DNA of 64,000 bases from Vulcanimicrobiota bacterium (GTDB lineage Bacteria > Vulcanimicrobiota > JAJTBE01), in contig JAIORV010000080.1 in the NCBI GenBank assembly GCA_021107945.1, positions 1 through 64,000 of the forward strand. The letters are read 5' to 3'. Under the pieces are notes generated by a model. It searched no databases. It had not been told where the DNA came from and saw nothing but the letters and a program-made list of their open reading frames with translations. A program made the translations under genes and the position numbers. The stretch's first letter is position 1, and each line of letters begins with the position of its first letter. Shown piece after piece: positions 16,808 through 18,874 of this stretch.

Positions 16808-18874
16808 ATGGGCACATCCGACAAGGAGATGTCTCCCTTTCCGATCATAAGAAAGCGGGACGGCCGACTGACGCGCTTTGATATAAATAAAATTTCGGAT
16901 GCTATCCATCAAGCATTCTACGCAATAGGAAATGAAAATCGAAGTCGATGTGACGAGCTTGCGACAATAGTAGTCAGAGAGCTTATCAACGCCGTCGAGG
17001 GTGGAGTGCCACATGTAGAGGAAATTCAGGACGCAGTGGAGCGTGTATTGATAAAAGAAAGTCACGAGAGAGCTGCCAAGGGATTCATTCTCTACCGCGC
17101 AAAAAGAAACAGCATAAGAGAAGGTAAATCTGAGTTAATGGACAGCGTTGAATCAATCCTGAGCGAAACGGGAAAGGAGACCAGATTCGGCTTCAACTCC
17201 ACGAGTGCGAAAATGATAAAAATAGCGGAAGCGGCAAGCAGAGCATTTTACCTTACAAGGGTGATCCCCAGCACTTATGCGGAAGCTCACAACAGGGGAG
17301 ATATTCATATCCACGATCTTGACTACTACAGCAAGACAATTCAATCACTCCAGATTCCGGTGGGGAGATTGTTTGAATCAGGATTTTCCTCGGGGTACGG
17401 TTATACAAGACCTCCCAGGCATATTTCCACAATAGGCTCATTACTGGCGATTATCATTCAGAGTTGTCAGAATGATATGCAGGGAGGGCAATCGATCCCC
17501 GAATTTGACAGACAGGTCGCCGGATATATTTCCCATCACGATAATATTAAGTATAGCAGGGAAGAATTATTGCAGACAATGCAGGGATTGGTATATAATC
17601 TTAATATGATCTATTCCCGTATCGGGGAGCAAGTTCCCCAGAGCACCATAAACCTGGGACTTGACACAAGCGCGGCGGGAAGAATGGTCACCGAAACTCT
17701 CCTGACCAATCTCGGACAGGGACTCGGCAGAGGCGAAACTCCTCTGTTCCCCTGGGTGGTTTTCCATATCAAAGATGGGGTCAACCTCAACGAGGGAGAT
17801 CCCAACAATGATTTACTCAAACTGGCCGTAAAAGTTGCCTGCAGAAGGATGAATCCCACTTTTGCCTTTGATGATGCTCCCATAAACCAGGGTGTTTCTA
17901 TGGCATACTGGGGAGACGCTTCCAGGACGGCGACAGACATGCCATTTAGTTGGGACGACGATGGCAATAAGCCTGAATCGATTTCAGGCTGGGGTAATAT
18001 CGCCCAGGTTACGATCAACCTGCCAAGGGTTGCGTTCAAGGTTGCTCACAGGCGTAAAGATTTTCAGGTAGAGTCGTTTCGAAACGAATTATGTCGGGTG
18101 ATAGAATTATGCGCACGGCAGTTGAAGCATCGAAGGGATGTAATTTCCGGGTTAAAAGTCAATGAACTTCCTTTTGTTATGGGAGAAAAAATCTATTCCG
18201 GATCCGGCGAGCTTCAATGGGATGACTCAATATCAGCCGCCCTTGAACATGGCATACTTTCAATAGGCTTCGTTGGACTTGCCGAGGCTGTTATGATTCT
18301 TTACGGGGATAGCTATGCAAGGGATGAGAAACTCCTTGACTTCGCCCTGGAAACATTGGATTTCATGCAAGAAGAAATTCAGAAAATCTCAAGGGAGTTC
18401 GAATCGAATCTTGTTCTCACGGCCTCCTCCTCGGGTTATGCGGCACATCGATTTCCCATTCTTGACCGGGGAGAATTCAGCACCGTGCCGATGGTAAACG
18501 ATAAAAAATACTATACTCAGGGATTCGGTCTTATGACGGATGAAAAAATTCCCTGGGAAAAGAAGCTTGAAATAGAGGGAAAATTTCACAACCGGGTTTC
18601 CGGGGGACATTTTACCTTCCTGGAATCTTCCAGGATGCCCGATGAGGAGACTTATCTCCGGGTATTGAAAAAAATGAGAGAATCGGGAATTGCATATGGT
18701 GGAATTTCTTTTCCTCTCACCGAGTCTCTTGACAACGGGAGTATTGTAACAGATCCACAGAAAGTCAAGGGACGTTTAAGGACAATCCGCAGAGCGGCGG
18801 GGTTGCTTCTCCCCCTGGAGAGAATTAACAAAGGGCTCAGGGAAGAATTGGGTCGAAGGAAGTTTGATTTATAA
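16808..18874 (+). CDS. NrdD-family glycyl radical protein lacking key cysteines
   Basis: 688 residues aligning over the full length with anaerobic class III ribonucleotide reductase. An ATP-cone domain lies at 13-105 (IIRKRDGRLTRFDI), then HIHDLDY at 167-173, PRHIST at 203-208, INLPRVA at 403-409 and the C-terminal glycyl-radical region RRAAGLLLPLERINKG (candidate G665). The sites expected to hold cysteines do not. The position of E. coli C79 is S180, the GCRS/GCRT cysteine is replaced in WGDASRT (S372), and the CxxC...CPxC zinc site before the glycine is SLDNG...TDPQ. Only five Cys exist (48, 220, 345, 429, 435). No nrdG activase is nearby. It is either a diverged enzyme with other chemistry or a pseudo-enzyme. 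Strong AGGAGG before ATG 16808. Confidence 0.8.
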   Translation: MGTSDKEMSPFPIIRKRDGRLTRFDINKISDAIHQAFYAIGNENRSRCDELATIVVRELINAVEGGVPHVEEIQDAVERVLIKESHERAAKGFILYRAKRNSIREGKSELMDSVESILSETGKETRFGFNSTSAKMIKIAEAASRAFYLTRVIPSTYAEAHNRGDIHIHDLDYYSKTIQSLQIPVGRLFESGFSSGYGYTRPPRHISTIGSLLAIIIQSCQNDMQGGQSIPEFDRQVAGYISHHDNIKYSREELLQTMQGLVYNLNMIYSRIGEQVPQSTINLGLDTSAAGRMVTETLLTNLGQGLGRGETPLFPWVVFHIKDGVNLNEGDPNNDLLKLAVKVACRRMNPTFAFDDAPINQGVSMAYWGDASRTATDMPFSWDDDGNKPESISGWGNIAQVTINLPRVAFKVAHRRKDFQVESFRNELCRVIELCARQLKHRRDVISGLKVNELPFVMGEKIYSGSGELQWDDSISAALEHGILSIGFVGLAEAVMILYGDSYARDEKLLDFALETLDFMQEEIQKISREFESNLVLTASSSGYAAHRFPILDRGEFSTVPMVNDKKYYTQGFGLMTDEKIPWEKKLEIEGKFHNRVSGGHFTFLESSRMPDEETYLRVLKKMRESGIAYGGISFPLTESLDNGSIVTDPQKVKGRLRTIRRAAGLLLPLERINKGLREELGRRKFDL

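Follow-up and report, generated by a model that had tools for sequence, protein, structure and literature searches.

An NrdD homologue with a conserved ATP-cone and a degraded catalytic site: a probable nucleotide-sensing pseudoenzyme in Vulcanimicrobiota and related proteins

We analysed a 64,000-nucleotide stretch of contig JAIORV010000080.1 from a Vulcanimicrobiota bacterium, referred to below as the window. One of its genes encodes a homologue of the class III ribonucleotide reductase NrdD, which is probably a maintained pseudoenzyme that senses ATP and dATP and would relay the signal through contact with another protein. Three lines of evidence support the pseudoenzyme assignment well: the loss of catalytic residues across a whole clade, the near-absence of an activase from the genomes concerned, and the concentration of the losses at the catalytic site, in contrast to a retained ATP-cone. 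A first-pass annotation of the sequence had left the choice between other radical chemistry and a pseudoenzyme; the second option is well supported, whereas the first finds little support for this protein, given the loss of the finger-loop cysteine, the zinc site, the flap and the phosphate loop and the missing glycine in its nearest relatives.

Fold and active-site residues of the window protein

The open reading frame is unbroken and contains no frameshift. The features discussed here all lie on the plus strand:

16808..18874, plus strand: pseudo-NrdD gene, 688 amino acids, intact open reading frame
16844..17110, plus strand: ATP-cone, residues 13-101, with 21/21 canonical-invariant residues present
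17180..17188, plus strand: site of the NxN flap that binds substrate, occupied by TRF (residues 125-127); motif from PMC11226230
17306..17317, plus strand: HIHD motif (residues 167-170), triphosphate recognition, retained
17345..17347, plus strand: S180, where the catalytic cysteine C79 (T4) or C171 (P. copri) stands
17597..17632, plus strand: Asn of the specificity site and loop 2 (N264-Q275), with key residues retained
17906..17926, plus strand: finger loop YWGDASR (residues 367-373), with D370 for the thiyl cysteine and W368 for Met
18422..18439, plus strand: substrate phosphate loop, ASSSGY (residues 539-544) in place of ATPAEG
18713..18763, plus strand: zinc-site region without cysteines (SLDNG...DPQKVK)
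18800..18802, plus strand: G665, at the glycyl-radical glycine column; S, T or I in the three closest relatives

The earlier proposal that the protein is NrdD-like over its whole length, ATP-cone included, agrees with the Pfam matches to NRDD (1.4e-118, residues 131-685) and ATP-cone (3.6e-20, residues 13-101). The nearest solved structures by sequence are the P. copri, S. thermophilus and T4 NrdDs, and an AlphaFold2 model built on 29 aligned sequences (mean pLDDT 88) has P. copri NrdD as its best PDB match (TM 0.77/0.82), i.e., the NrdD fold. The protein also passes TIGR02487 with 345 bits against a cut-off of 326, and annotation pipelines would therefore read it as an active anaerobic reductase, misleading predictions of anaerobic growth. 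It has the full-length homology and the fold of a class III reductase, yet it lacks catalytic features that define the enzyme, and the label of anaerobic ribonucleotide reductase should be avoided.

Residues were assigned by aligning the protein with canonical NrdDs, none of which deviates at the two cysteines or the two asparagines of the flap, using the numbering and motifs of P. copri NrdD (PMC11226230). S180 occupies the C79 position, as originally read from the sequence. The loss of the second cysteine in WGDASRT also holds, but the residue aligned with the thiyl cysteine (C416 in P. copri NrdD; WGDASRT against canonical MGCRTR) is D370 rather than S372. The four-cysteine zinc site is gone, again as first described, and to these losses we add the NxN flap (TRF), the finger-loop Met (W368) and the phosphate loop ATPAE (ASSSG). 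The specificity-site residues N264, R271 and Q275 are present.

All five cysteines of the protein (48, 220, 345, 429 and 435) lie elsewhere, in line with the initial reading. C220 and C345 were considered as catalytic residues and rejected, because they fall in non-catalytic alignment columns and, in the model, in helices 206-223 and 334-347, while strand 180-182 carries S180 and strands 365-367 and 373-375 flank the finger loop. In the crystal structure of T. maritima NrdD, the essential cysteine is displaced from the active site (PMC4493059); since residues 346 to 428 of the window protein include no cysteine, this escape is closed. Judged from the aligned residues, the site can no longer carry out radical nucleotide reduction. 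The C-terminal glycine G665 noted in the first-pass annotation is indeed there, but it is not a feature of the group: the three nearest relatives have replaced it, so that its presence does not by itself indicate radical chemistry.

Degradation and retention across a clade of 13 proteins

Relatives were recovered by a profile search of genome contigs, a single-protein query having given none. The resulting clade has 13 members: four from genomes of the window's phylum, where the three relatives of the window protein come from other families and are 44-50% identical to it, and nine from the class of genome G163, which we infer to be Sericytochromatia. The 13 proteins form one group in the tree (support 94/95; 96/93 without the longest branches) that adjoins canonical NrdDs of Bacillota and Chloroflexota; this topology suggests a single origin, with some doubt from the long branches. 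Plasmid matches are all below 60% identity, the named ones being annotated as reductases, and among viral sequences a canonical NrdD matches best. A 244-kb viral contig (L238:3001-5064) encodes a canonical NrdD with an ATP-cone and complete catalytic residues, 36% identical to the window protein. In a Syntrophothermus record (UBA1445; L045:2043-5696), NrdD is a single frame of 1218 amino acids whose loop 2 motif (SMHS...HNSRAGAQ) is interrupted by a long, intein-like insert.

The phylogeny answers a question raised with the initial annotation, since the whole clade lacks catalytic residues. The C79-type cysteine is absent from all 13 members (S in 10; T, G or A in the others). The thiyl column is without cysteine in 10/13, the exceptions being G004, G163 and G166; a cysteine one position after this column in G171, G157, G179 and G151 may reflect alignment slack. 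The NxN flap is absent from 12 members and the radical glycine from seven. A frameshift or assembly error is unlikely, because independently assembled relatives show the same losses. The clade supplies natural intermediates, such as the least degraded member, G163, in which C79 is gone but the NxN flap, a cysteine in the finger loop, the zinc site and the glycine persist.

Such intermediates bear on the possibility that these proteins are glycyl radical enzymes with altered chemistry, which we consider very unlikely. G665 of the window protein would fit this reading, as would the glycine and finger-loop cysteine retained in G163, G166, G171 and G151, the first three of which also keep the zinc site, and the PflA-like radical SAM proteins of G004 and G166, which score under the NrdG cut-off. 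However, the window protein has no cysteine in the finger-loop region, its nearest relatives have lost the glycine, 12/13 genomes have no NrdG over the cut-off, and the NxN flap, the phosphate loop and the zinc site are lost.

To compare loss and retention, we counted columns that are invariant in 20 canonical relatives, each column in each protein being one cell. The catalytic set consisted of the published motifs and two adjacent motif residues. Retention in the window's phylum (four proteins) is 83/84 for the cone, 15/64 for the catalytic set and 407/548 for the other invariant cells; the corresponding values for Sericytochromatia are 173/189, 42/144 and 821/1233. Fisher p-values on these counts are descriptive only, because the catalytic set was fixed after the site tables had been seen and relatedness among the proteins makes their cells non-independent. 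On the aligned residues, the ATP-cone of the window's group is nearly unchanged, and most of its specificity-site and loop 2 residues are kept.

The same data speak to a decaying, functionless remnant of a class III reductase after loss of nrdG, an explanation that we regard as unlikely. Catalytic residues have drifted to many states, and the zinc site and glycine were lost piecemeal, as decay would predict. Moreover, the G150 protein (L159:6458-8206) ends at 583 amino acids and lacks the whole zinc/glycyl-radical domain, the profile match continuing past the TGA, and the G176 protein is very divergent. Against decay, the reading frames are intact across two phyla without frameshifts, the cone is retained almost completely, and the close pair G157/G179 (621/685 identical), a single pair outside the window's lineage, gives dN 0.054, dS 0.518 and a dN/dS of about 0.1, barrel included.

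Genome context and a possible output

An NrdG-like gene, judged by motif, follows the canonical nrdD in 16 of the 17 canonical sisters with downstream sequence, and nrdR lies upstream of nrdD in several canonical relatives. No NrdG or NrdG2 scores over the cut-off in 12/13 clade genomes, these absences being weaker in the incomplete genomes G005 (75%) and G004 (86%). The sole exception is the window's genome. The gene studied here has no adjacent NrdG, as the first-pass annotation stated, and the NrdG2 gene on contig C22 adjoins a canonical Thermotoga-type nrdD, so that the second, complete nrdD envisaged at the outset does exist together with an activase. This pair would permit a mixed complex in which the pseudo-NrdD regulates the host's canonical NrdD, but that arrangement is very unlikely: the two proteins are of distant types (27% identity), and it cannot be the role of the clade in general, because other genomes have no second NrdD (none over the cut-off in G017, G004, G005, G149 and G150). 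The remaining Sericytochromatia have one NrdD match per genome.

The gene 60 bases past the pseudo-NrdD stop, on the same strand (window:18935-20899), encodes a protein of 654 amino acids that is rich in Pro, Lys and Glu and has a membrane segment at its C terminus; this gene could be co-transcribed with the pseudo-NrdD gene. Further along (window:21002-22448), a small RelE/HigB-like frame overlaps a frame of 411 amino acids with an N-terminal helix-turn-helix and an HExxH-like motif, by eye a possible toxin-antitoxin pair. Two long putative proteins (window:28094-29248 and window:41755-43911) have Gly/Met-rich and Pro/Gly-rich low-complexity stretches.

The gene nrdR lies directly upstream of the pseudo-NrdD gene in 7/9 Sericytochromatia; the G163 copy is truncated at the end of its contig. 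The window's genome carries nrdR on a different contig, and no neighbour points to a partner. Co-regulation of the clade genes by NrdR was considered and is unsupported, because a scan that detected a pair of NrdR boxes 32 bp apart in Carboxydothermus gave none in their upstream regions. Canonical relatives, too, show the order nrdR-nrdD-nrdG, so that the history is most simply explained by loss of nrdG from such a cluster, with nrdR and a dead nrdD left in place; the nrdR linkage may thus have been inherited. A class II-type large-subunit match is present in all six genomes tested, its readable frames beginning without a cone, and the only ATP-cones over the cut-off across the 13 clade genomes are those of NrdR, the pseudo-NrdD and the host's canonical NrdD.

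For the maintained, nucleotide-sensing pseudoenzyme, we propose an NrdD-like dimer whose cone would bind ATP or dATP and whose dimer interface would bind dNTPs. The dATP/ATP ratio would shift its conformation or oligomeric state, as in P. copri NrdD, and the signal would be handed on through protein contact, most likely reporting dNTP status to the ribonucleotide reductase system. The universal loss of C79, the loss of the thiyl cysteine and NxN flap in most members and the kept cone count in favour of this reading, as do the dN/dS of the one close pair, the grouping in one clade, the missing activases, the restriction of ATP-cones to three kinds of protein, the nrdR adjacency in Sericytochromatia and the modelled fold. 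Its weak step is the unproven output to the candidate partners, the repressor NrdR or a class II reductase without an ATP-cone. That the stand-alone pseudo-reductase is a dATP/ATP activity switch acting in trans on the cone-less class II reductase, or a co-sensor with NrdR, is tentative; it would be a form of ribonucleotide reductase control assembled from a dead reductase. Several observations count against the sensing reading: canonical relatives share the nrdR-nrdD adjacency, the most divergent members have a degraded specificity site, and a cone is missing from about 93% of class II enzymes in any case (PMC4390871). If regulation of dNTP supply is its role, the clade shows how a regulated enzyme becomes a pure regulator after losing its activase.

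Comparison with known systems

In the open-licence literature, we found no ribonucleotide reductase pseudoenzyme or NrdD without its catalytic cysteine of this kind, and no bacterial group of class III pseudo-reductases whose nucleotide sensor is intact. Inactive homologues of the large subunit are known from herpesviruses, where R1 proteins such as MCMV M45 are kept for another role (PMC12282084). Unlike the protein described here, M45 is a viral class I homologue engaged in host interaction, with no link to bacterial nucleotide sensing.

The closest model is NrdD of the P. copri type (PDB 8p23, 8p2s), the type to which the clade's nearest canonical relatives belong. The window protein has the same succession of ATP-cone, 10-stranded barrel and C-terminal domain, the same predicted fold and HIHD motif, and likewise loop 2 and the Asn of the specificity site, but lacks C79, the thiyl cysteine, the finger-loop Met, the NxN flap, the ATPAE loop, the zinc cysteines and a dedicated activase nearby. 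NrdR, the cone-bearing repressor of ribonucleotide reductases, is likewise a cone sensor without reductase catalysis and is the neighbouring gene in most Sericytochromatia; it differs in having a DNA-binding zinc ribbon and no large dead reductase barrel, and it is a separate gene here. A precedent for control by a cone on another polypeptide is the transfer of the ATP-cone to the radical-generating subunit NrdB (PMC5794259), although the partner in that case is an established one, the second subunit of a class I reductase, whereas the partners proposed here are candidates.
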